This document shows, piece after piece, positions 1,446-43,895 of a DNA stretch of 51,492 nt (positions within the stretch are counted from its first letter, which is position 1; each line of letters begins with the position of its first letter). Below the pieces are notes generated by a model, which did no database searches, was not told the origin of the DNA, and was given only the letters and a program-made list of their open reading frames with translations. Source of the DNA: a virus. Location: positions 1-51,492 of the IMG/VR virus record IMGVR_UViG_3300042731_008773; one strand, given 5' to 3'. The position numbers were made by a program, and so were the translations under genes.

Positions 1446-1907
1446 ATGAAAATTTTCTATGATGGTAAATTAATAGAAGTCGATCAATCTGACCCCAGAT
1501 TGAAAGAACTAAACATTACAATCGGGGATGGTTGTGAAATTAACCCTAATTGTATAATTAAATCTGGTTGTCATATTAAATCTGGTTGTAAAATTGGATC
1601 TGATTGTGAAATTGGATTTGATTGTTATATTGAATCTGGTTGCCATATTGGAAATAACTGTTATATTGGATTTGGTTGTTATATTGGATCTAATTGTCAT
1701 ATTGAACCTGATTGTGAAATTGGATCTAATTGTTATATTGGATCTAGTTGTATAATTGGATCTGATTGTCATATTGAATCTGATTGTAAAATTAAATCTA
1801 GTTGTTATATTGGATCTAATTGTATAATTGAACCTGATTGTGAAATTAAATCTAATTGTGTAATTGGATTTGGTACTCGAATAAAAAAGAACACTTATTT
1901 GAAATGA
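1446..1907 (+). CDS. Left-handed beta-helix hexapeptide protein, copy 3 (short)
   Basis: This 153-aa paralogue of the previous protein has the same N-terminus (MKIFYDGKLIEVDQSD), about 18 hexapeptide turns rather than 34, and the shared end GTRIKKNT. Its SD (AAGGAGCAAAT) copies that of the gene at 670, so the whole unit with its ribosome-binding site was duplicated. Its stop overlaps the ATG of the next gene (ATGA, 1904-1907), which implies translational coupling. The function is unknown. Confidence 0.75.
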   Translation: MKIFYDGKLIEVDQSDPRLKELNITIGDGCEINPNCIIKSGCHIKSGCKIGSDCEIGFDCYIESGCHIGNNCYIGFGCYIGSNCHIEPDCEIGSNCYIGSSCIIGSDCHIESDCKIKSSCYIGSNCIIEPDCEIKSNCVIGFGTRIKKNTYLK

Positions 1908-22117: not shown

Positions 22118-22154
22118 AACATTTCTCTCTATAAATAATATAGAAGGGAATGTT
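22118..22154. other. Imperfect inverted repeat in divergent intergenic region
   Basis: The arms AACATTTCTCTCTATA (22118-22133) and TATAGAAGGGAATGTT (22139-22154) pair over 14 of 16 positions. The repeat lies between the divergent starts of the - strand membrane gene and the + strand island promoter, in a 200-bp gap with no gene. It could be an operator or 5' UTR hairpin; unproven. Confidence 0.4.
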
Positions 22155-22215
22155 TATTTATGTCAATGAAAATTATTATTTATATCAAAAAAAATAATAA
22201 TTTTTTATAAAATAC

Positions 22216-22244
22216 TTGACAAAGTACATAAATATATGTACTAT
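22216..22244 (+). promoter_or_regulatory. Island promoter P1 with palindromic operator
   Basis: A perfect -35 TTGACA (22216-22221), a 17-bp spacer and -10 TACTAT (22239-22244). The spacer holds GTACATAAATATATGTAC (22224-22241), an inverted repeat that reaches into the -10. The same 38-bp block recurs at 24040 and 24448. A bound repressor would block RNA polymerase. It drives the genes from 22284 to 23995. Confidence 0.85.
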
Positions 22245-22283
22245 AGTAGTAGAAGTTAAAATTAAAAATTCAGGAGAAAATCA

Positions 22284-22448
22284 ATGATAAAAATGATAAA
22301 AAAAATAATAACAGGGTTTAGGTTTTTAAATATTCCAGATTTTTTACTAAAAGATGGAAATAAGTTATACGGGCCGAAGCCCGTATTGAATATACCGAGA
22401 TCATTCAGGCATTGGAAAGCATGCCTGAAGAATCATTTTCAAAATTAA
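22284..22448 (+). CDS. Small protein of the hairpin-rich island (54 aa)
   Basis: The ATG follows the SD AGGAGAAAATCA and gives MIKMIKKIITGFRFLNIPDF... ending HFQN, 54 aa, basic. The 3' half is overlaid by hairpins: ATACGGGC-CGAA-GCCCGTAT (22367-22386), TTCAGGCAT/ATGCCTGAA (22404-22429) and an 11-bp AT stem over the stop (22439-22465). Another frame over 22363-22437 also looks protein-like (IEYTEIIQALESMPEES), so a frameshifted remnant is possible. No family is recognised. Confidence 0.45.
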   Translation: MIKMIKKIITGFRFLNIPDFLLKDGNKLYGPKPVLNIPRSFRHWKACLKNHFQN

Positions 22449-22657
22449 ATATATTTTAATTTTGAAAGTCTTGCCGCCATCCATGGGCGTGGATCGAATC
22501 CAAGCAAGACGCATAACGGAATTACTTTCTTCGTAAGCCGGTGCGATTCCGGAACGGCGACCGTGGCCGTTGGACAAGAGTGTCATCGGGGAAAGTAAGG
22601 TAGGGTAAGGATATATACTTGCCCTATTTTAAAAAATTTTTAAATAGGAGAAAAAAT
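22449..22657 (+). other. Structured, GC-rich leader between island genes
   Basis: This 209-bp stretch has no convincing gene but several nested inverted repeats: GTCTTGC/GCAAGAC (22468-22510), CCGG/CCGG (22538-22552), AACGGC/GCCGTT (22553-22571), and CCTATTT/AAATAGG (22623-22648), whose 3' arm covers part of the SD (AGGAG) of the next gene. It may be a cis-acting RNA that controls translation of the gene at 22658. It is richer in GC than its surroundings. Confidence 0.45.
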
Positions 22658-23083
22658 ATGAAGATGATAATCGCAAGGGTCTATGAAACGAATGGCCCTA
22701 TTTATTTCCTTGGTTCGTCTAACGTAGACGAAATCGAGGAAATATGGAAAATAGAATCAAAATCGGATTTTGATTCTATCAACGATTCCTGCCATGGAAA
22801 CTTGTCCTGTGACGGCAGCACTTGGCAGGATTGGGAAGGTGTATTTTTCGTCCACTATTGGGACGGGAATAATTGGAAGGCTTTACAAATCGACGATGAA
22901 TTTGAAATCGTCGAGTATGAAGAGGTGGAGGACACCTCTCCCGAGCCGGCTTTCTACTTTGGGAAAAGAATAGAAGTAGATGACCAGTCCATTGAACTGG
23001 TCACGAGTAATATGTCAGGAAATATTACTCCATTCTGGATGAGTCATCCCGAATACCTGTGGAACACCATTCGGGGGGCTTAG
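22658..23083 (+). CDS. Hairpin-tiled island protein, function unknown (141 aa)
   Basis: The ATG at 22658 follows the SD AGGAGAAAAAAT; an in-frame start at 22619 lacks an SD. The acidic 141-aa protein contains STWQDWEGVFFVHYWDGNNWKALQIDDEFEIVEYEE; no family recognised. The coding sequence carries successive perfect stems, including a 14-bp inverted repeat with a single-base centre (22751-22779), TGACCAGT/ACTGGTCA (22981-23003) and GAGTAATAT/ATATTACTC (23005-23030). Transcribed from P1. Confidence 0.65.
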   Translation: MKMIIARVYETNGPIYFLGSSNVDEIEEIWKIESKSDFDSINDSCHGNLSCDGSTWQDWEGVFFVHYWDGNNWKALQIDDEFEIVEYEEVEDTSPEPAFYFGKRIEVDDQSIELVTSNMSGNITPFWMSHPEYLWNTIRGA

Positions 23084-23116
23084 GTAGCAATATTATTTAA
23101 AAAGGAGAAAAAAATT

Positions 23117-23503
23117 ATGAAAAATTACAACATTATTAACCACTCCCTGAGCGAAGAGCAACTCAGGGAAATTGAGGGGGAAATTATTTCCCCCTCCGAG
23201 GAGATCAAAAAAGGTCTCCTCCAATCGCCTGATAACGAGGAGGCGATTGGTTCTTTAGCTACAAAGATAATTTTGGAAGCTAAAGAGCGAGGATGTACTG
23301 CTATCCTCGCACCAGGCGGAAGTCCTGCTTTGATGGCGATTATTGCCATCGAAGCAAATGAGGCCAAAATTGGCCTCAAATTCTCTCACTCTGTGAGGGA
23401 TTTTTCTGAAGTCGTAGCTCCTGATGGAACTGCGACAAAAACGAACGTATTTCGACACGTTCGTTGGTTGGAATTCCATCCGACTAAATACAAAATTATT
23501 TAA
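23117..23503 (+). CDS. Hairpin-tiled island protein with SxR...PDG...VFRH motif (128 aa)
   Basis: The 128-aa protein has an SD AAGGAG. Its features (NHSLSEEQLREIEG, APGGSPALMAI and SHSVRDFSEVVAPDGTATKTNVFRHVRWLEF) resemble a widespread small phage/prophage family with an N-terminal LTxxQ segment and C-terminal PDG..KTNVFRH; its biochemical role is not known to me. At least twelve stems tile the gene, for example GAGGGGGAAA/TTTCCCCCTC (23174-23196), CCAATCGCCT/AGGCGATTGG (23221-23250) and ACGAACGT/ACGTTCGT (23441-23464). Confidence 0.65.
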   Translation: MKNYNIINHSLSEEQLREIEGEIISPSEEIKKGLLQSPDNEEAIGSLATKIILEAKERGCTAILAPGGSPALMAIIAIEANEAKIGLKFSHSVRDFSEVVAPDGTATKTNVFRHVRWLEFHPTKYKII

Positions 23504-23518
23504 GCATCCCTAACCTCT

Positions 23519-23552
23519 GCCCTCTTCGGAGGGCTCAGCCGGCGATGCTGAG
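23519..23552 (+). other. Two adjacent hairpins in intergenic gap
   Basis: GCCCTC-TTCG-GAGGGC (23519-23534) has a UUCG tetraloop, and CTCAGC/GCTGAG (23534-23552) follows at once. No T-run follows, so they are not typical terminators; they continue the hairpin tiling outside coding sequence and could block 3' exonucleases or mark processing. Confidence 0.6.
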
Positions 23553-23578
23553 AAATAAAATTAAAAAGGAGGAAAGCT

Positions 23579-23995
23579 ATGGGTTATTTTCATAAAGGTG
23601 GGCAAATAAAGGACTATATTTGCCCACACGGAATCAACTTTTCAAAATTCGGGGAGTGTAAAACTTGTGCACTCTCCGAAAGAGAGGATGACTACTTGCG
23701 AAGTCATCCTGAAAAAATTATTTCCCGGGCAACCGGGAAAGATATCGTTACCGTTTTTCAAAACAACGGTAACGAAGAGACCTTGTATCTTCCAACCGGA
23801 AAATACAAGGTTGGCTCGATCGTGAAAGAAACGATCGAAGAAGATGGGTATGAAGAATACCCAACAATAAAAGTTGTAAAAGGAACAGCGATCAAAGTTG
23901 TTCCTGAAATGAAAAAGTTTAAGATCCTTCCAAAAAGTTGGAAGGAAGAAGTCGAAGAACTATATATCTACTCGAAAGATATAATTTTCGAGTAG
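23579..23995 (+). CDS. Hairpin-tiled island protein with possible zinc knuckle (138 aa)
   Basis: The 138-aa protein follows the SD AGGAGGAAAGCT. N-terminal CPHG...CKTC (residues about 15-31) could bind zinc; the rest is beta-rich and charged. No family recognised. Ten stems cover nearly the whole gene: 11 bp at 23598-23627, 11 bp at 23648-23680, 9 bp at 23685-23710, 8 bp with GCAA loop at 23721-23740, 10 bp at 23746-23774, 8+4 bp at 23781-23810, 8 bp at 23816-23838, 7 bp at 23845-23863, 9 bp at 23925-23946 and 16 bp at 23962-24001. Confidence 0.65.
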   Translation: MGYFHKGGQIKDYICPHGINFSKFGECKTCALSEREDDYLRSHPEKIISRATGKDIVTVFQNNGNEETLYLPTGKYKVGSIVKETIEEDGYEEYPTIKVVKGTAIKVVPEMKKFKILPKSWKEEVEELYIYSKDIIFE

Positions 23996-24005
23996 ATATA
24001 TTTTT
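23962..24005 (+). terminator. Terminator overlapping the 3' end of the island gene
   Basis: A perfect 16-bp stem (23962-23977 with 23986-24001, 8-nt loop) spans the last codons and stop of the gene at 23579 and ends in TTTTT (24001-24005). It probably terminates the P1 transcript; P2 begins 35 bp later. Confidence 0.7.
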
Positions 24006-24039
24006 GACCTTTCCTCACTCCTCGAAGGGATAAAATAAC

Positions 24040-24068
24040 TTGACAAAGTACATAAATATATGTACTAT
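24040..24068 (+). promoter_or_regulatory. Island promoter P2 with palindromic operator
   Basis: TTGACA (24040-24045), 17-bp spacer, TACTAT (24063-24068). Operator GTACATAAATATATGTAC at 24048-24065, identical to P1. It drives the 89-aa gene at 24101. Confidence 0.85.
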
Positions 24069-24100
24069 AGTAGTAGAATAAATACTATTAGGAGAAAAAT

Positions 24101-24370
24101 ATGGAAAATATATATGCACAAATTAAAAAAATTAAGGATCTCTCAACTATCCCAACAGTTGAAGAGGATCCTTCTATTATCTCCATGCAGGAGAAAATAG
24201 AAAAAGATCTACAGGAAATTAAAAGTCTACAAGAGAAATTATTTTCTATTGTAGACTTTCTACATAAAGAAAATATATATAGAAAGAGTGCTTCATCTAT
24301 ATTTATAGATGAAATTAGAACACAGGTTCTGATAAATCTTGATAAATTAAATCAATTAAATCAATTTTGA
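24101..24370 (+). CDS. Hairpin-tiled island protein, coiled coil (89 aa)
   Basis: The SD AGGAGAAAAAT precedes the ATG. The 89-aa product is highly helical (EKDLQEIKSLQEKLFSIVDFLHKE) and probably a coiled coil. No family recognised. Stems include AAGGATC/GATCCTT (24134-24173) enclosing TCAACT/AGTTGA, and an 11-bp stem AAAGTCTACAA/TTGTAGACTTT (24222-24259). An 8-bp stem (24386-24412) lies just after the stop. Confidence 0.6.
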   Translation: MENIYAQIKKIKDLSTIPTVEEDPSIISMQEKIEKDLQEIKSLQEKLFSIVDFLHKENIYRKSASSIFIDEIRTQVLINLDKLNQLNQF

Positions 24371-24447
24371 GAAGAAATCTATTTCAGAGAATCAAGGAAT
24401 TAGAGATTCTCTTAGAAGAAGAAAAATAATAATTTTTTCAACATAAC

Positions 24448-24476
24448 TTGACAAAGTACATATATTTATGTACTAT
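24448..24476 (+). promoter_or_regulatory. Island promoter P3 with operator in reverse orientation
   Basis: TTGACA (24448-24453), 17-bp spacer, TACTAT (24471-24476). The operator GTACATATATTTATGTAC (24456-24473) is the exact reverse complement of that in P1 and P2, while the flanks are unchanged. The SD of the next gene overlaps the conserved GTAGTAGGAG, so the leader is very short. Confidence 0.85.
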
Positions 24477-24494
24477 AGTAGTAGGAGAAAAGTT

Positions 24495-25088
24495 ATGAAA
24501 AAAGAGTTTAAACTTGAAAATTTGGGCTTGGGAAAAGGCCCTTATAAATTAATCGATTATTTTGAAATCCAAGCTCCTGATACAGATTCAGGAGCTCTTT
24601 TTGCTATACCTATCAAAAACAGGACAAAATATCCTGTTAAAAATATTGGGGTTTGTGCAATATGCGGAACTCCAATTAAGAACAATTATGTTGTTCGGTC
24701 ATCTGATAACGAGATATTCGTTGTTGGGTGTGAATGTATTAAAAAAATCAATGACTGCATCTTGATTGATGCAGTTAAAAGACATCAGAAAATCCTCAAT
24801 AAAGTTAAGGATTTTCATCAAGCAAAAGCCTTATTTAGTAATTTTTTCGACTCGTTAACGCAACCTCAAATAGATCATCTAAAGAAGGAAATCAAGACGA
24901 ATTACAGACATTTTAGCAACGTCCGTCAAGCAGACGAATTCTGTAATATCTACGAGGCCCTCAAGGATCAAAAAGAACGAATTGAAAAAATACAACTAAA
25001 AAAACTCTCCGACATATTACAAGTCTCTTTTCAAACACACAAACAAGTCAAAGAAGAGATTGCTTACATTGAAAACCTTTTTACGTAA
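24495..25088 (+). CDS. Hairpin-tiled island protein with treble-clef zinc finger (197 aa)
   Basis: The ATG at 24495 has the SD AGGAGAAAAGTT; an in-frame start at 24468 lies inside the -10 and was rejected. Residues about 50-85 (GVCAICGTPIKNNYVVRSSDNEIFVVGCECIKKI) are a Cys4 zinc finger seen in many phage proteins of unknown role. The remainder is helical. Stems include AGCTCCTGA/TCAGGAGCT (24572-24596), AACAGGA/TCCTGTT (24618-24638), ACTGCATC/GATGCAGT (24754-24775), GAAAATCCT/AGGATTTTC (24788-24816) and ATTACAGA/TCTGTAAT (24901-24947). Confidence 0.65.
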   Translation: MKKEFKLENLGLGKGPYKLIDYFEIQAPDTDSGALFAIPIKNRTKYPVKNIGVCAICGTPIKNNYVVRSSDNEIFVVGCECIKKINDCILIDAVKRHQKILNKVKDFHQAKALFSNFFDSLTQPQIDHLKKEIKTNYRHFSNVRQADEFCNIYEALKDQKERIEKIQLKKLSDILQVSFQTHKQVKEEIAYIENLFT

Positions 25089-26664: not shown

Positions 26665-27375
26665 TTACTGCAATTTATGCAAAATATCACTATAATATTC
26701 TCGTTCCCATAAATTTTTATCAAAATTATCCCCTCTTTTTATACCTATTGAAGCAACTCGTAAATATTCACGTTTATAACGACCTCCTCCAAGCATCGCA
26801 TAATTAGAATGAATTGGTAATTTATAATGATTTAAATAAGCGAAAACATCTTTTTCTTTCCACCACCCCAAAGGACGACACGTGTTTTTAGTTTGATAAC
26901 CATATAATTTCATTACTATCTTTCTTATACCAGACTCATCTGCTCTAATACCAGATACATATTTATTTCCATATTTTTTATTAGCTATTTTAAATCCTTT
27001 TTCAATAGTTCCTGTAGCTCTCAATCTATTCCCATCAAACCATCGATCTATATGTATTTCATTATAATTTACATTTCTAAATTGTTTTAAAAATTTATCC
27101 CTAACAACAAAACAATAAGGATTTACTATATCTTTCACAACAATCCAAACAAAAGGAATATTTAAACCTGACTGAAGACATAAATGAATAAGTACAGTCG
27201 AATCCTTTCCCCAGGAAATAGAAGCATAATTCGGTTTAAATTTTTTTATAATATTGATTGCATCAATTTCTTTTTTTCTGACATTATTTAATTTATAATT
27301 TATTAAATCAATTTCTTCATACTCCTTCCATAATTCTAAATCTTCTTTTGTATGTCGTTCACATTCTATGAGCAT
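26665..27375 (-). CDS. cysH: CysH-like PP-loop enzyme of the type IV-B module
   Basis: The 236-aa protein has the PP-loop ISWGKDST (residues 53-60), which binds ATP or adenylylated substrates in PAPS reductases and related sulfurtransferases, then VSGIRADESGIRK and a C-terminal CRPLGWWKEKDVFAYLNHYKLP, typical of CysH-like proteins. CysH-like genes are a known, unexplained companion of type IV-B csf operons. It is the last gene of the block and overlaps the SPOUT gene by 10 bp. DndC-type DNA phosphorothioation is an alternative, but no dnd genes are seen. Confidence 0.75.
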   Translation of the reverse strand: MLIECERHTKEDLELWKEYEEIDLINYKLNNVRKKEIDAINIIKKFKPNYASISWGKDSTVLIHLCLQSGLNIPFVWIVVKDIVNPYCFVVRDKFLKQFRNVNYNEIHIDRWFDGNRLRATGTIEKGFKIANKKYGNKYVSGIRADESGIRKIVMKLYGYQTKNTCRPLGWWKEKDVFAYLNHYKLPIHSNYAMLGGGRYKREYLRVASIGIKRGDNFDKNLWEREYYSDILHKLQ

Positions 27376-27767
27376 TGTTTTATACTCCAGTCATATAAAA
27401 TAATAGATAAAGAAGCTTCTACAGTAAGACAAAAACTATTAATTGTAGGAATTTTTAATTTATTGTTACAATTGATTTTTTTAGGTAAACCACAGGTTTC
27501 TCCACCAATTATTATACCTTCAATATTTTTCCAATCAAAATTGTATATTGATTTTTCATAATAATTTTCAAATGCTACTATATTTTTTAAATTATTAGGA
27601 AAAGAAATTGTTTTAATTTGTACTTTATCTTTTGCAGTAAATAAGTTACCTTTTAATTTATAATTTTTATTATCAGAAATAATAAAAATTTCTTCTATAC
27701 CAAAACTATAACAAGTTCTATATACTCTATTTAGATTCCTATTAACATTATACAAATAAATTTTCAC
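27366..27767 (-). CDS. SPOUT (TrmH/SpoU-like) methyltransferase in the type IV-B block
   Basis: The 133-aa protein has the TrmH-family pattern: N-terminal MKIYLYNVNRNLNRVYRTCYSFGIEEIFII, the SAM-knot motif GIIIGGETCGLP and the final IPTINSFCLTVEASLSIILYDW. Such enzymes 2'-O-methylate RNA ribose. It is shorter than typical (about 150-160 aa), as often in single-domain SpoU forms. It overlaps cysH and the zinc-finger gene (ATGA). I know no published link of SPOUT enzymes to type IV-B, so the association may be new. Confidence 0.7.
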   Translation of the reverse strand: MKIYLYNVNRNLNRVYRTCYSFGIEEIFIISDNKNYKLKGNLFTAKDKVQIKTISFPNNLKNIVAFENYYEKSIYNFDWKNIEGIIIGGETCGLPKKINCNNKLKIPTINSFCLTVEASLSIILYDWSIKQCS

Positions 27768-28276
27768 TTTTTCTCCTTATTCCTTCCATAATTAGGATTG
27801 ATATATTTTCGGATATGTTGTCGCCGGCAATTTCTACAAACTGTTTTACCAGGAAAAAAACTTTTAAACATATATTCTTTTTTACTTTCACCACAAATAT
27901 CACAACAATTAAAATAATTAGGGGAATTTTTTTTATACTTCTTCCTTCTTTTTTTTTCTCTTTTATCTGCTTTGTCAAACGGAAGCTGACGATTAAAAAT
28001 TTTTTTAATATAAGAAAAAGAATAAGAAGAAATTACATGCCTATAAAAATAATATAATTCACGTTGTAATAATAAATTTCTTTTTTTCAAATCACCTTCT
28101 GATAAACAAGCAAAGGCGATGATTTGAAAAACATCCTCTTTATAATAAGGATAAACATATTCAAAAATTCTATTATGTTTTGCAAAAGTAAAAAATAATA
28201 GAAAATCAGGAATAATCTCTGCATATTTTTTTATTATAAAAAAAGTACCTGTTCCAGAATAATTAATACTCAACAT
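27764..28276 (-). CDS. C4 zinc-finger protein in the type IV-B block, function unknown
   Basis: I chose ATG 28276 (MLSINYSGTG; 170 aa), preceded by AAAGGGAAAT; a TTG at 28312 has no SD. The N-terminal 100 residues are helical (EDVFQIIAFACLSEGDLKKRNLLLQRELYYFYRHV), the middle is very basic (KREKKRRKKYKKN), and the C-terminus has CCDICGESKKEYMFKSFFPG followed by VCRNC, a C4 finger like those of phage HNH-related proteins. It overlaps csf3 and the SPOUT gene. It could bind nucleic acid. Confidence 0.55.
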   Translation of the reverse strand: MLSINYSGTGTFFIIKKYAEIIPDFLLFFTFAKHNRIFEYVYPYYKEDVFQIIAFACLSEGDLKKRNLLLQRELYYFYRHVISSYSFSYIKKIFNRQLPFDKADKREKKRRKKYKKNSPNYFNCCDICGESKKEYMFKSFFPGKTVCRNCRRQHIRKYINPNYGRNKEKK

Positions 28277-28938
28277 GGAATAATTATTTCCCTTTGATTT
28301 TTTGGATGCCAATATGGGGGATTAACTGCTCCATATCCTATTTTAAATCCTGTGTATTCATTTTGCTTTTCTATTGGAAGAGTACGCATTAAAATTTTAA
28401 TATTATTTCCTTTGGCATAAACACTTAAATCGTCTTCTATTTTTTCAATTTCCCATGAAGAAATAAAACCATACCCTATTTTTCTATAATAACCAATAAA
28501 ATTTACATCTTTTAAAAGACGCTGACATTCTTCAAAATTACCATTCACAAACCATATAATTTTATCTATAAGTTTTACATGAATAGGAGCAAACCGGCTT
28601 TTATATACTCCTCCTCCAATTGATAGAACTCTCCTTTTGTCTGATTTAATTAATAGACTTAATTTATCAGTTTCAAATCGATATTGATGTCTATCATGCC
28701 ATTCTGTATATATTTTATAAATTGGATTAGAACACCTATATATTTTTAAATTTTGTATCATAAAATAATTAATAGGTATAGGAATATTTTCAAATTCCGA
28801 AAGTGGAGTAGATCTTAAAAATTTCTTTCCAGACACCTTCTTCATTTTAAAACTTAAAATGTATGTTAATAAAGAATCAAGTAAAGGAGGATCCCCACAT
28901 AAAGGAGATCCTAAATTAGCTGTTACTTTTAAATTCAT
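28270..28938 (-). CDS. csf3: Csf3 (Cas5-like) subunit of type IV-B complex
   Basis: The 222-aa protein starts MNLKVTANLGSPLCGDPPLLDSLL and has the RAMP-type glycine-rich segment FIGYYRKIGYGFISSWEIEKIE, plus IYTEWHDRHQYRF, matching Csf3, the Cas5-group subunit that caps the 5' end of the guide in type IV complexes. The gene overlaps csf2 by 4 bp (ATGA). Assignment by motif and operon order. Confidence 0.8.
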   Translation of the reverse strand: MNLKVTANLGSPLCGDPPLLDSLLTYILSFKMKKVSGKKFLRSTPLSEFENIPIPINYFMIQNLKIYRCSNPIYKIYTEWHDRHQYRFETDKLSLLIKSDKRRVLSIGGGVYKSRFAPIHVKLIDKIIWFVNGNFEECQRLLKDVNFIGYYRKIGYGFISSWEIEKIEDDLSVYAKGNNIKILMRTLPIEKQNEYTGFKIGYGAVNPPYWHPKNQREIIIPC

Positions 28939-29855
28939 TTTTTCTCCTTATCTTCAGAAAAATTTTCATTCAGCCATTGTATACATTTTTCTTTATTTTT
29001 TATTATATGATCTTCATAATTTGATATATACATATCTATCTTATCGTCAGTAATTTCTATTTCTTTACACTCAATAAAATATCTCATATTTAAAAGACCA
29101 TGTCCAATTCTCGCTTGTCCTCCTATTGTTCCTCCTAATTCAGACCATGTTTTAAGTGCTAAAAATAAACTTCCAACTTCAAGTAAAGATACCTTATTCA
29201 AAATAAAACCATGATAAAACATAGCCCCTGGAATAACTGTCTGTCCAGAATACAACATTAAATTGCTTTTGGAACTTTCTATATTTTTATGTAATAATTC
29301 AGAAGCATCTTTTCTTTTTAATGCGTCTCCTCTTGTATATTGATATTGTTTTATAAAATCATCCGACATTTTTAAACAATCATTTGTTAATTTCCATTCA
29401 TTTGGCAAATGATTGTTTATATTTTTTTTATTCTCCTCACAAATTAATACACCACGTTTACAAATCATACTACCTGCCACGATTTGATCTCGTAAACTCC
29501 CACCAAGTAAACGAAATAAAGGAAATAAAATTTGTAATTCAGCTATAGACTTCATATTCTCATTTATAGAACTTTTTGTAAGTGCTCCTCCATAAAACAT
29601 ATAATTTACTTGATCTATATTTAATTTCCCTGCAAGATCTAATTTATCTATTAAAAATAAAGTGCCAGGCTCTCTTATAAATTTATGTCTAATAGCGTTT
29701 CCGGAAATTACAGGAACATCTTTTATTTTGTCATTATATAAAATTTTTTCTTTATTTATTAAAGATTCATTACCAGCCGTTCCCATCATATGTGTTAGAG
29801 AAGACAATACTTTTGAAATACAATGTATATTTACATTTAATAATTTTTCACTCAT
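28935..29855 (-). CDS. csf2: Csf2 (Cas7-like) backbone subunit of type IV-B complex
   Basis: The 306-aa protein has typical Csf2/Cas7 features: LSSLTHMMGTAGNESLINKEKI, VPVISGNAIRHKFIREP near the N-terminus, a LLGGSLRDQIVAGSMI segment, and the C-terminal SELGGTIGGQARIGHGLL. Cas7 subunits polymerise along RNA and form the helical backbone. The gene overlaps cas11 by 8 bp and csf3 by 4 bp. Confidence 0.85.
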   Translation of the reverse strand: MSEKLLNVNIHCISKVLSSLTHMMGTAGNESLINKEKILYNDKIKDVPVISGNAIRHKFIREPGTLFLIDKLDLAGKLNIDQVNYMFYGGALTKSSINENMKSIAELQILFPLFRLLGGSLRDQIVAGSMICKRGVLICEENKKNINNHLPNEWKLTNDCLKMSDDFIKQYQYTRGDALKRKDASELLHKNIESSKSNLMLYSGQTVIPGAMFYHGFILNKVSLLEVGSLFLALKTWSELGGTIGGQARIGHGLLNMRYFIECKEIEITDDKIDMYISNYEDHIIKNKEKCIQWLNENFSEDKEKK

Positions 29856-30384
29856 TTTCTTCCTCCTGAAATAAATCTAACTCTTTTTTCATATTTTTTC
29901 TTTTTCTTACCCTTATTTTTTCTTCTATAATTTTTTCCTTCTTATCATCATATTTTTTTCTCCATAAATCCCTTGCATGAATAAGAAAAAGAAAATATTT
30001 CTTTTCAATAAGCTTCAAAAATTCAACTTTCCATTCTAAAGATTTTGTAGAAATAATATCTACAAATGATATAAGAGATTCATTTGCAGCCACTTTACCA
30101 GGTTCAGCTTTTATATAATCCAAAGAACAATTTATAAACATATCAATATCATCCCCTGCTTTTGCAATAGAAGCAAGCAATCCATTTCCTATTCTTTCCC
30201 ATAAAGTTTTACGATCCAAATCACTTGAAAATAGTTCTGGTAAAATGGAAATAAATTTTATTATTTCCATTTTTAAATCCTCCTGATCTTCTACTTCTAA
30301 TTTTTTAAACGTATCCACCACCCCTGCTACTTCCAAACGAAATTCTTCCAAAGAAATAGAAGTTACATTACTTTTTTGATTCAT
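29848..30384 (-). CDS. cas11: Small subunit (Cas11-like) of type IV-B complex
   Basis: The 178-aa protein is all-helical (LPELFSSDLDRKTLWERIGNGLLASIAKAGDDIDMF) with a strongly basic C-terminus, and lies between csf1 and csf2, the place of the Cas11 small subunit in type IV-B loci. Small subunits form the belly of the effector. There is no diagnostic motif, so the call rests on fold character, size and order. It overlaps csf1 by 17 bp. Confidence 0.65.
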   Translation of the reverse strand: MNQKSNVTSISLEEFRLEVAGVVDTFKKLEVEDQEDLKMEIIKFISILPELFSSDLDRKTLWERIGNGLLASIAKAGDDIDMFINCSLDYIKAEPGKVAANESLISFVDIISTKSLEWKVEFLKLIEKKYFLFLIHARDLWRKKYDDKKEKIIEEKIRVRKRKNMKKELDLFQEEENE

Positions 30385-31012
30385 TTCTTGATTCCTCCTT
30401 ATTTTTTGCCAACCATGCAGCCAATTGACTTAATAATTCATTTTGTATAGTTAACCATTTCTCATATTCAGAAATAGTATTATAATAATCATTAACAGCT
30501 ATGAAATAATTAAAATGAGGTTTCACTAATAAAGCCGGTTTTCCAATAGCTGCTGTTAAATAATCTGCTAACTTCAATCTACTTATTAATTTACTTATAT
30601 TTACATATATTCTTTTTTCTTCAAATTGAATAGGATAATCATCTTTTGTTTGTGCCCAAATGCTTCTAAAAGCAATATTCTTTTTTCCTGATTCTGAAAT
30701 AATTATTTTAAAAGGGGGTTCTGGTGGAATTAGTATTTTCTCTCTTATCTCTTTTACATGTTTTTTTGAAAAAGCAATTCTTTTATCTTTAGTAATTACC
30801 CAGGAATATAAACGAGGAGAGCCTGTTCTTACTTCCTTATCAATCATTTCAATTTTTGATTTGCTTCCAAAAAAATAAGCACATTCTTCACAAACATATT
30901 TTGATAAGGAATCTGCAACAATATCAACATTTGTAAAAGTTGACCTAACAAAATCTTTTGTGGAATACTTATTAGTACATACACAACCACAAAAATAACA
31001 ATTATAATTCAT
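30368..31012 (-). CDS. csf1: Csf1 (Cas8-like large subunit) of type IV-B complex
   Basis: The 214-aa protein has the Csf1 zinc finger: C5-x2-C8 and C41-x2-C44 flanking STKDFVRSTFTN, followed by SPRLYSWVITKDKRIAFSKK and PPEPPFKIIISESGKKNIAFRS, as in Csf1 proteins. Csf1 is the signature protein of type IV systems. SD GGAGG precedes the ATG, and it starts 33 bp after the portal stop in the same direction, so the csf block is probably transcribed with late genes. Confidence 0.8.
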   Translation of the reverse strand: MNYNCYFCGCVCTNKYSTKDFVRSTFTNVDIVADSLSKYVCEECAYFFGSKSKIEMIDKEVRTGSPRLYSWVITKDKRIAFSKKHVKEIREKILIPPEPPFKIIISESGKKNIAFRSIWAQTKDDYPIQFEEKRIYVNISKLISRLKLADYLTAAIGKPALLVKPHFNYFIAVNDYYNTISEYEKWLTIQNELLSQLAAWLAKNKEESRNESKK

Positions 31013-36825: not shown

Positions 36826-37323
36826 ATGAATAATAATATAAAAAAATTATTTCTTAAACAAGAAAGCCTTATAAAAATAAAGGCATTCCAGTACTGGAAT
36901 AAAAATAAAGTCATTCCCTTCGATGACTTTATATCGGAGTGTCATTTTATCTTTTTACATTGTTATGAAAAATATAATCCGGAAAAAGGCTCGTTTAAAA
37001 CCTTCTTCACAAAAGCTCTCGATAATAGATTAAAAAATTTTATATATCGAGAAGGAAATAAATATAATCAAACAGCAACCTCTAATATAAATTCAATAAA
37101 TGACACATATAATATTTATTTTGAAGACTGGAAAAATGAACTGTCTTCTGAAGCACAAAAAATTATTGAAATAATATTATATAAACCATTAAAACAAATA
37201 AAATCAAGAAAAGGAACAATAACAAAAACTTCAATTAAAAATTTCTTAAAACAAAATAATTGGAAAAATAGTCTTATATTTTTCTGTTTTAATGAAATAC
37301 AAACAGCATTAAAAAAAGTATAA
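36826..37323 (+). CDS. Sigma-70-like factor (putative)
   Basis: The 165-aa protein has a region-2-like segment IPFDDFISECHFIFLHCYEKYNPEKGSFKTFFTKALDNRLKNFI, which matches DLxQEG...YDPxKGxFxTxAxxxIxNxI of sigma factors. The C-terminal half (EAQKIIEIILYKPLKQIKSRKG) is a weaker region-4-like helix set. As the first early gene it could direct the host polymerase to later promoters such as the repeated 55-bp element. The gene also carries strong stems (ATTCCAGTACTGGAAT palindrome at 36885-36900; a 10-bp stem at 36905-36932). Confidence 0.55.
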   Translation: MNNNIKKLFLKQESLIKIKAFQYWNKNKVIPFDDFISECHFIFLHCYEKYNPEKGSFKTFFTKALDNRLKNFIYREGNKYNQTATSNINSINDTYNIYFEDWKNELSSEAQKIIEIILYKPLKQIKSRKGTITKTSIKNFLKQNNWKNSLIFFCFNEIQTALKKV

Positions 37324-39370: not shown

Positions 39371-40258
39371 ATGTTTGATGCAAAGAAATTTCTTGACGAT
39401 TATAATATACCGTATGACACAAAAGGCAAAAATTGCTCACCAGGTTACATCAATATTCAATGCCCAATGTGTGACGACAGATCAAATCATGGTGGATTTA
39501 ATATAAATCAAGAATTTTATAATTGTTGGAAATGTAAAACATACTCACTTGGTACAGTTATAAAAGAACTGCTTGACATTTCTTGGCCTCAAGTAAATTT
39601 AATTATTGATGAATACACCAATAATTATTCAACTGTAGTAAAAAAAGTAATAACAAAAAAACCAATAAAAGTATTCCTCCCAAAAGGTGTTATACATCCC
39701 TTACCGAAACGACATAAAAAGTATTTAAGAAAACGTAATTTTGACCCTTATAGGATAGAAAAAGAATTTGATTTATATGGTACTGAATTACTTGGCAGTT
39801 ATTGTTTACGAATTATAGCACCAATTTATTATGGTGGTAAACTTATATCATACCAAGCAAGAGATATTACCGGCAAACAGAAATTGAGATACAAGACTTG
39901 CGAAAAAGACAAGGAGATTATATTCCATAAAGACATTCTATACAATCAGGACAATTGCAAAAGCCGTGCTGTTATCGTTGAAGGCATTACAGATGTATGG
40001 CGACTGGGTAAAGGAGCATGTGCTACATTTGGTACAGGCTGGAGACAATCACAACTTTTAGAAATGATAAAATTATTTAATCATATTTTTATATTATATG
40101 ATAAAGGTGTTGAGGCACAAAAACAAGCTGAAAAATTAGGAGGAGCTTTCTCCTCTTTTCATAATAAAACTGCTGAGATTATTATGCTCGATTATGATGA
40201 CCCTGCTTCGATGCCACAAAATGAAGCCAACTATTTAATAAAAGAATTAAATTTATAA
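39371..40258 (+). CDS. DNA primase (zinc finger + TOPRIM)
   Basis: The 295-aa protein has an N-terminal zinc finger CPMCDDRSNHGGFNINQEFYNCWKC (residues about 36-60) and a TOPRIM domain: AVIVEGITDVWRLG with Glu, ATFGTG, IFILYDKGVEAQKQAEKL with Asp. It is a short phage primase that makes RNA primers for lagging-strand synthesis. The DnaB-like helicase gene lies downstream. Confidence 0.8.
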   Translation: MFDAKKFLDDYNIPYDTKGKNCSPGYINIQCPMCDDRSNHGGFNINQEFYNCWKCKTYSLGTVIKELLDISWPQVNLIIDEYTNNYSTVVKKVITKKPIKVFLPKGVIHPLPKRHKKYLRKRNFDPYRIEKEFDLYGTELLGSYCLRIIAPIYYGGKLISYQARDITGKQKLRYKTCEKDKEIIFHKDILYNQDNCKSRAVIVEGITDVWRLGKGACATFGTGWRQSQLLEMIKLFNHIFILYDKGVEAQKQAEKLGGAFSSFHNKTAEIIMLDYDDPASMPQNEANYLIKELNL

Positions 40259-40300
40259 AAATTTTCTTGACAATAATGATAAAATATTTTAAATGAGACG

Positions 40301-40306
40301 TATAAT
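40301..40306 (+). promoter_or_regulatory. -10 element of the structured RNA
   Basis: TATAAT at 40301-40306 places the start near 40313, exactly at the 5' arm of the first hairpin. A TTGACA at 40267-40272 is 28 bp away and cannot pair with it; the -35 at proper distance is weak. Confidence 0.5.
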
Positions 40307-40311
40307 CTATA

Positions 40312-40440
40312 TTAACAACTTATGCGTTTTTGCCCTTAGACAAATCCATAAGTTGTTAATACAAAAAATTTAGAGCTGGTTTAAACATCGTCTAAGGGGG
40401 ACCGAAAGGTTTTGATGCTTAAACCAGCTTTTTATTTTTA
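40312..40440 (+). ncRNA. Structured RNA with kissing hairpin loops, ending in a terminator
   Basis: Hairpin 1: TTAACAACTTAT (40312-40323) with ATAAGTTGTTAA (40348-40359), 12 bp, 24-nt loop. Hairpin 2: AGCTGGTTTAAACATC (40374-40389) with GATGCTTAAACCAGCT (40414-40429), 15 of 16 pairs, 24-nt loop, then TTTTTATTTTT, an intrinsic terminator. The loops carry CCCTTAGAC (40333-40341) and GTCTAAGGG (40390-40398), perfectly complementary over 9 nt. A small ACC-GAAA-GGT hairpin (40401-40410) sits in loop 2. It is either a roughly 125-nt noncoding RNA or an attenuator of the initiator gene at 40456. No family recognised. Confidence 0.75.
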
Positions 40441-40455
40441 AAAGAGGAAGAAAAA

Positions 40456-41610
40456 ATGCATGATGATACCTTAATACTTGAAACATTATCTCAAGATGCT
40501 CATCTCTCTTTAAATAAAAAATTATTAAAAATTCTTGGAATAAATACTACATTAATTTTATCTGATTTAATCTCAAAATATAAATATTTTAAATTAAAAA
40601 ATGAATTAGATGAAGAAATGTTTTTTTATAACTCAATGCATAATATTATGAAAGATACTACATTAACACCAAAACAACAAAGAAAAGCAATAGAAATATT
40701 AGAAGAAAAAAAGATACTTGAAACAAAACTCAATAGAAAAAATAAAAAAACATACCCCACAAAACATTTTAAAATAAATTTTAATCGATTAGAAGAAATA
40801 TTAAAATCATCTGATAAAATAGTACATACTATGTGCCCAAATGTCACATACGAATGTGACCAAAAGACACATACGAATGTGACCAAAGGTCAGTGTAATA
40901 AGAATAATATTAATAAGAATAATATTAATAAATCTTTTAATAAATTAAAAGATAACAGGTTTGAAAAACCTGTCAATTTTGATAATTCTCCTAATAATAA
41001 AAATAACAAAAATAAACATCCTAAAATAAATGAATTTACAATTAAAATTATCACTCTATGGAATAAATGTCCTTCTGTTCCTACAAAACATAAAATAGAT
41101 AAGTATTACAAATTTCATTCTAAAGTACAAAAATATATTAATGCTTTAAAAGCAGGAATGTTTGGAGAAATAATAGATCTATCAAGAGATTATATGTATA
41201 AAAATGCAATCATGGAAAAAGATTTAACAAAAAAATATACTGAAGCAGAAATTAAAAAAATAGTATCTAATTGTTTATTGGCTTACAAAGAAGGGTATTG
41301 GCCAACAAATAAAAATATATTACCTAAATCAATTTCTGAATTATTTTATTCAACACCTTTTTATTCAACAAAATATGTTCCTGGTGAATCCAAAAGTCAT
41401 TTTTTATATATTCATGCTAGACCCCCACGTAAAATAAGAAAATCAAAATCTTCAGAAATAGTTAAAAGAGAAATGGAAGCAAGAAAGTGTATACTTACTG
41501 AAGAAGAAGAAAAAATTCTTGATAAACAACTTAGTAGACAAATAGAGGAGCGTATGTTTAGACGTCAGATAGCAGCAGGAACATATATACCAATGGAGGA
41601 TGTAAAATGA
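40456..41610 (+). CDS. Replication initiator-like protein (winged helix N-terminus)
   Basis: The 384-aa protein starts with LSLNKKLLKILGINTTLILSDLISKYKYF and MHNIMKDTTLTPKQQRKAIEILEEKKILET, a winged-helix unit as in phage O/DnaD-type initiators. The middle is Asn/Lys-rich linker (NKNNINKSFNKLKDN), and the C-terminus is basic-helical (PRKIRKSKSSEIVKREMEARK). SD AAGAGGAAGAAAAA lies immediately after the terminator of the structured RNA, so expression may depend on readthrough. An 18-bp coding repeat (ACATACGAATGTGACCAAA, 40848-40885) is present. Confidence 0.6.
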   Translation: MHDDTLILETLSQDAHLSLNKKLLKILGINTTLILSDLISKYKYFKLKNELDEEMFFYNSMHNIMKDTTLTPKQQRKAIEILEEKKILETKLNRKNKKTYPTKHFKINFNRLEEILKSSDKIVHTMCPNVTYECDQKTHTNVTKGQCNKNNINKNNINKSFNKLKDNRFEKPVNFDNSPNNKNNKNKHPKINEFTIKIITLWNKCPSVPTKHKIDKYYKFHSKVQKYINALKAGMFGEIIDLSRDYMYKNAIMEKDLTKKYTEAEIKKIVSNCLLAYKEGYWPTNKNILPKSISELFYSTPFYSTKYVPGESKSHFLYIHARPPRKIRKSKSSEIVKREMEARKCILTEEEEKILDKQLSRQIEERMFRRQIAAGTYIPMEDVK

Positions 41611-43244: not shown

Positions 43245-43895
43245 ATGAGTATAAGATTATTAATACAAAAAATTTATTCCTCATTTGATAGTGAAGTAAA
43301 TGCTTATGGACAAGGTTATCCAACAACTATAATTAAGATGGCTGGCTGCAATATGGATTGTCCACATTGTGATATTGATTATGGCCCATTAAAGAGTAGC
43401 CAAATGTCGATACAAGAAATAATAGAGTTTATTAAAACAAAAAAAGTAACAATTACAGGGGGTGAACCACTTCTCCAAACAGAAAATTTATCTGTTTTAT
43501 TAGATAGATTAATAAATAAAAATATTCATATAACAATAAAAACTAATGGATCATTACCTCTACTTGCTGTTGATTCTGAATTAGCCTCTTATGTAGTTGA
43601 TTTTAAATTACATGATCCAGAATCTTTTTTATTTGAAAATGTTAAAAATTTAAGTACATATGATTGGATAAAGTTTGTAATTGACTCAAATGAGCAATAT
43701 AGACAAGCTCTTGTTTACATAAGAGCAATAAAACAAATTAATAGTTGTGTAAAAATTGCATTAAGTCCTATTCATAAAATAAAAGCAGGTAAACATATAA
43801 TTACACCAACTCCAGAAGAATTATTATCATGGATGATACTGGATGAAATAACTGATAATACTGTTAATTTTCAATTACATAAATTTATTAGATAA
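43245..43895 (+). CDS. queE: 7-carboxy-7-deazaguanine synthase (QueE-like radical SAM)
   Basis: The 216-aa protein has the QueE cluster motif C35-x3-C39-x2-C42 (GCNMDCPHC), VTITGGEPLLQ and an ITIKTNGSLPL segment. QueE makes 7-carboxy-7-deazaguanine, a precursor of PreQ0. Phages use such pathways to put deazaguanines into DNA against host restriction. QueC, QueD and DpdA were not seen in the window. The SD AAAGGGAAAAGT follows the repeated promoter-like element. Confidence 0.85.
   Translation: MSIRLLIQKIYSSFDSEVNAYGQGYPTTIIKMAGCNMDCPHCDIDYGPLKSSQMSIQEIIEFIKTKKVTITGGEPLLQTENLSVLLDRLINKNIHITIKTNGSLPLLAVDSELASYVVDFKLHDPESFLFENVKNLSTYDWIKFVIDSNEQYRQALVYIRAIKQINSCVKIALSPIHKIKAGKHIITPTPEELLSWMILDEITDNTVNFQLHKFIR

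Follow-up and report, generated by a model that had tools for sequence, protein, structure and literature searches.

An island of hairpin-tiled genes in a DNA phage encodes a probable ring nuclease and points to selection on mRNA structure

Why would a DNA phage write a handful of its genes as chains of perfect hairpins? The question is raised by a plus-strand gene island (g0 to g5; Table 1) in IMG/VR virus record IMGVR_UViG_3300042731_008773, analysed here over positions 1 to 51,492 (the window), which make up most of the genome of an uncultivated DNA phage. The transcribed region of this island, coding and non-coding alike, is packed with short perfect inverted repeats. The evidence points to selection on the mRNA, and not to a DNA-level repeat process alone. 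Judged from its sequence, one of the genes, g2, probably encodes a ring nuclease directed against type III CRISPR (clustered regularly interspaced short palindromic repeats) immunity.

The three island kilobases hold 10, 15 and 8 perfect stems of at least 8 bp, as opposed to mostly 0–3 per kilobase elsewhere; the kilobase 40001–41000, outside the island, has 6. The original prediction, made from the DNA letters alone, had singled out two 14-nt arms separated by one base, and these (22751–22764 and 22766–22779) are indeed 100% complementary. Likewise, the 417-bp gene at 23579 (g3) does contain the ten stems ascribed to it, all of at least 7 bp, although the last, of 16 bp (23962–23977/23986–24001), extends beyond the stop codon. 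Both GNRA- and UUCG-type loops exist as well, as GCAA at 23721–23740 and C(UUCG)G at 23519–23534, but the latter is intergenic (23504–23578).

Synonymous-codon shuffles, in which protein and codon usage are preserved, fall short of this density in every gene, so the shuffle comparison that the original prediction named as a possible refutation leaves it standing. Stem-paired bases number 67, 62, 89, 27 and 33 in g1 to g5, compared with 6.2 (maximum 25), 7.5 (33), 8.5 (31), 9.0 (25) and 6.4 (24), respectively, in the shuffles. Local folding energies agree: set against the z scores of the five genes (Table 1), 15 other phage genes range from +1.2 to −1.7, with a single exception at −4.5. Expressed per nucleotide, the folding excess is −0.194 in g2 and −0.186 in g3, about 12 standard deviations from 614 control open reading frames (ORFs) on other contigs (mean −0.007, standard deviation 0.015). 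Whole-gene folding energy thus lies well below that of shuffles preserving protein and codons, as defines globally structured coding RNA. The stems are far denser than chance, and folding energies and stem counts together uphold the claim that codons are constrained and the mRNAs highly structured. What needs amending is the picture of five equal hairpin chains: density is highest in g1–g3, moderate in g4 and only partial in g5, where it declines past about 24820, whereas g0 and the leader are covered too. The proteins also seem to be constrained by the hairpins, as had been proposed, for permuting whole codons leaves still fewer stems than synonymous shuffling (g0–g4), and more stems use the 3–3 pairing phase, which has the least synonymous freedom, than any other (16 of 34).

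A repeat family or CRISPR-like array was considered and rejected, as the hairpins share no repeats and only the promoter recurs. Rfam gave no match at the gathering threshold for the island RNA, and the weak ones are chance. A second candidate case (L066, 1056–1346) turned out to lack hairpin tiling. Beyond the island, the sole long non-repetitive gene with structure strongly in excess (z −4.5 to −5.0) encodes a sigma-70 region 2 protein (36826–37323, plus strand). Two cysteine-rich hexapeptide-repeat proteins with an N-terminus in common (670–1419 and 1446–1907, plus strand; Pfam Hexapep 2.4e-60 for the first) owe their excess probably to the hexapeptide repeats.

A perfect Watson–Crick stem forms as well from one strand as from the other, and a DNA-level process therefore had to be considered. 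In such a scenario, template switching at small quasi-palindromes perfected the inverted repeats, the island tolerates them, and the RNA has no function. Several facts fit: the stems are almost purely Watson–Crick, with few interior mismatches of no clear type, stem ends are not enriched in G–U pairs, and the codon phase with the least synonymous freedom is the commonest. Counts of interior G–U versus A–C mismatches (17 versus 7 at stem length 8, 10 versus 6 at 9, and 5 versus 6 at 10) were discarded as a strand test, being ambiguous across these lengths and unaccompanied by enrichment at stem ends. Selection on the translated strand is supported instead by the sense preference, to which the stem-end counts add nothing. 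Each of the five genes has a greater folding-energy excess on the sense strand than on the antisense strand, and with the stems fixed and the remainder shuffled, the actual remainder favours the sense strand (z −3.8), in a test built on an energy model. Furthermore, the start regions, six in all, rank at the 87th–99.7th percentile of windows by openness, and structure begins downstream of them. It is the combination of these three observations that favours selection on mRNA. In addition, a conserved protein motif stays intact within a hairpin (see below), and a DNA-level process gives no reason for the island alone being hit. We therefore regard a purely DNA-level origin as rather unlikely. 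Both processes may nonetheless have been at work, with hairpin-templated mutation as the source and RNA selection as the filter.

What do these messages encode? The g2 protein matches Csx20 along almost the full length of the model (NF040559 of NCBIfam, E 1e-5, 25.9 bits, model positions 3–124 of 124; PADLOC Csx20, E 1.7e-6). It lines up with Csx20-like proteins from genomes at the C-terminal DG..K..F.HV.W motif. Csx20 is a confirmed ring nuclease for cyclic tetra-adenylate (cA4) and is present in a few phages (PMC12409355). The family motifs in NF040559 are an N-terminal H..(x)sE.Q, a central GE/GD, S-x-x-x-R and the C-terminal K..F.HV.W; g2 retains the first, third and fourth, while its central position reads PGGSP. 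The GE and STTER-like motifs are only partly kept, as APGGSP and SHSVRD. The family-conserved KTNVFRHVRW is encoded as a perfect 9-bp hairpin (23440–23465), which means that structure has been fitted onto a conserved protein. As for the other products, g5 has a cysteine-rich domain common to Aeromonas and other phages (phrog_2319, 1.4e-7), and family searches with the proteins of g0, g1, g3 and g4 gave no convincing match. Given the full-length family match of g2, the g5 homologues in phages and the open start regions, the suggestion that the RNA, rather than the proteins, acts is not supported. Nor are the hairpins a property of protein families: 14 genomic csx20-like genes are not hairpin-tiled and g5 homologues elsewhere have no hairpins, so the tiling belongs to the island.

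The original prediction had offered resistance to RNases or to RNA-targeting defence as a purpose of the structure. This is plausible, and likelier given the Csx20-like ring nuclease in the island. The reading we favour, and hold tentatively, is that of a counter-defence island whose hairpins would shield its mRNAs from immunity acting on single-stranded RNA. Type III systems sense RNA and, via cyclic oligoadenylates, release RNases; of these, Csx1/Csm6 cleave the single-stranded RNA of both the invader and the host (PMC7192623). In the island, short transcripts encoding the Csx20-like protein and its uncharacterised partners would start from a single operator-bearing promoter present in three copies. 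Type III or Cas13 guides need accessible RNA to pair, and tiled mRNAs would offer them few 30-nt targets; open 30-nt windows amount to 0–1% in g1–g3, compared with 3–10% in shuffles. The hairpins would also expose less single-stranded RNA to Csx1/Csm6-type HEPN nucleases, while the ring nuclease would destroy the cyclic oligoadenylate that switches these nucleases on. With only the start sites left open, the messages would stay translatable during RNA decay, and the phage could make the antidote after immunity had fired. The perfect repeats may have been supplied by hairpin-templated mutation, with selection acting on them afterwards. Somewhat more doubtful is the stronger form of this proposal, in which writing counter-defence messages as continuous perfect hairpins excludes type III/Cas13-type guides and single-strand RNases together, as a sequence-independent counter-CRISPR strategy.

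Several observations weigh against such shielding. First, the start regions remain single-stranded and hence cuttable. Second, as no gene beyond the island shows the pattern so strongly, one would have to assume a need peculiar to the island genes. Third, the g2 match is below the curated cut-off of NF040559 (70 bits), and a single-sequence model of g2, meant to reveal a CARF-like fold, is of useless quality (mean predicted local distance difference test, pLDDT, 39.9). Fourth, the Watson–Crick purity of the stems and the lack of G–U enrichment at their ends, already described, count on the same side. Finally, no homologous island that could show covariation was found in IMG/VR, searched by protein and promoter, or in GTDB contigs, searched by g2 and terminase. 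The main limits of the analysis are a single genome, the sub-threshold g2 match and the energy-model-dependent strand test.

Could the hairpins simply repel ordinary RNases (RNase E/Y type and 3′ exonucleases), with no relation to RNA-guided immunity, in the way that the genomes of RNA phages withstand degradation? Unpaired dinucleotides indicate no single RNase motif, the most protected being UC, CC, GU and CG. General mRNA stability would sit well with an excess of structure of the same order as in MS2/Qbeta genes or above, with the structuring of leader, intergenic stretches and genes alike, and with stems that do not exceed some 16 bp, a short length for an RNase III substrate. However, other early and late phage genes do without such structure. 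Moreover, a single 5′ hairpin is usually enough to slow RNase E, which makes whole-gene tiling excessive for this purpose. We consider general stability possible but improbable.

The leader raises yet another possibility. It is predicted to form a four-way junction (22522–22598) as well as a pair of mutually exclusive hairpins, of which one lies over the ribosome-binding site of g1. The junction, with a 12-bp closing stem, two 7-nt loops and a tRNA-like outline, has no Rfam match and could be a sensor or ribozyme-like element. These features would suit a regulatory role, whereby the hairpins slow ribosomes or couple translation across the operon, the leader serves as a switch for g1, and output or folding is tuned. 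Tiling of whole genes exceeds the needs of tuning, though; the start regions are open, not occluded, and Rfam offers no counterpart. Regulation is thus a distinctly unlikely explanation.

Table 1. Coordinates of the island and of the neighbouring csf cluster (z, folding z score; for g1–g5, local folding energy against codon shuffles; aa, amino acids)
Feature	Positions	Strand	z	Remarks
Whole island	22216–25088	+		three promoters, leader, mini-ORF, five genes
Promoter copy 1	22216–22252	+		TTGACA-17-TACTAT with dyad GTACATAAATATATGTAC
g0 (mini-ORF, 54 aa)	22284–22448	+		hairpins 22367–22386, 22404–22429, 22437–22467
Leader, non-coding	22468–22652	+	−3.7 and −2.8	
g1 (141 aa)	22658–23083	+	−7.2	acidic; hairpin-tiled
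g2 (128 aa)	23117–23503	+	−11.1	Csx20-like; with g3 the most structured
Intergenic stretch	23504–23578	+	−3.0	structured, with C(UUCG)G tetraloop
g3 (138 aa)	23579–23995	+	−11.4	ten stems; possible N-terminal Cys/His zinc site
16-bp perfect hairpin	23962–24001	+		spans g3 stop codon, with a U-rich tail behind it; may terminate transcript 1
Promoter copy 2	24040–24076	+		
g4 (89 aa)	24101–24370	+	−5.0	12-, 16- and 9-bp hairpins, two of them with a single mismatch
Promoter copy 3	24448–24484	+		
g5 (197 aa)	24495–25088	+	−4.1	hairpins confined to first half
Type IV-B-like CRISPR cluster	26665–31012	−		CysH-like, Csf3, Csf2, Cas11, Csf1; PADLOC E down to 1e-87

The island sits among minus-strand late genes. 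Its 37-nt dyad-bearing promoter occurs three times in the window and not at all in shuffles, and the dyad is likely an operator. Just beyond the island, on the minus strand, a strong promoter-like site (22137–22166, 11/12) could restart late transcription. A second IMG/VR contig, IMGVR_UViG_3300035136_000045, is identical to the window and starts within promoter copy 3 (24468–24484), as would happen if assembly had broken at the repeated promoter. A metagenome chimera is unlikely, since no reading frame or ribosome-binding site is disrupted and the second contig confirms g5; g1–g3 are known from one record only.

The nearest relatives, L008 and L009 (terminase 59% identical), share with the window the gene order terminase, portal, head gene; in them the head gene comes directly after the portal, and the csf genes are absent. 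L008 extends beyond the head gene, and no hairpin island is present in that part; the L009 sequence stops within the gene. Accordingly, the csf cluster and the hairpin island look like cargo flanking one gene. The csf cluster also contains a SpoU-type RNA methyltransferase gene (27366–27767, minus strand; Pfam 3e-8), beside which lies an orphan cysteine-rich protein (27764–28312). Farther away, a radical SAM protein is encoded at 43245–43895 (plus strand); it may be QueE-like, which would suggest deazapurine DNA modification.

This neighbourhood invites the idea that the tiled messages escape the phage's own type IV-B system, if Csf filaments coat RNA without clear sequence preference. The genes csf1, cas11, csf2, csf3 and cysH are one gene away and likewise absent in the nearest relatives, and a type IV-B complex assembles on non-CRISPR RNA (PMC7937560). 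Other phage messages, those of the csf genes included, are nevertheless unstructured, and among the type IV-B genes and neighbours of Skermania phage SPI1 there is no comparably hairpin-tiled gene. Such an exemption appears very improbable.

How does the island compare with known systems? Like phage morons and anti-defence islands (e.g. those of AcrIII-1 ring nucleases), it is inserted between oppositely oriented late genes, has its own promoters and is absent from relatives (here L008); it differs from morons by the three copies of one promoter/operator and by the hairpin-tiled genes. Its g2 protein resembles Csx20 of type III CRISPR loci from end to end, the C-terminal motif included, and differs from Csx20 genes elsewhere by the sub-cut-off score, the partial motifs and the tiling. 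As in MS2/Qbeta and the genome-scale ordered RNA structure (GORS) of RNA viruses, the coding sequence folds far beyond the needs of protein and codons. For MS2/Qbeta genes, the excess lies between −0.074 and −0.100 kcal/mol per nucleotide; g2 and g3 reach about twice this value (−0.19 and −0.18), g1 and g4 about −0.10, and g5 −0.05. Perfect stems of at least 7 bp number 19–26 per kilobase in g1–g4 but 0–3.4 in the RNA phages, which rely on imperfect long-range helices, as opposed to the perfect local hairpins seen here in a handful of DNA phage genes. We found no report of hairpin-tiled coding sequences in a DNA phage in the literature searched, which was covered in part. Structured genes beside a likely ring nuclease suggest that phages may defend their transcripts by structure; if true, this protective role would be a new counter-defence principle, written in codon choice. 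Dense RNA structure in coding sequences, known from RNA viruses, here takes a stronger and more regular form in a DNA phage, where it is confined to a small set of genes.

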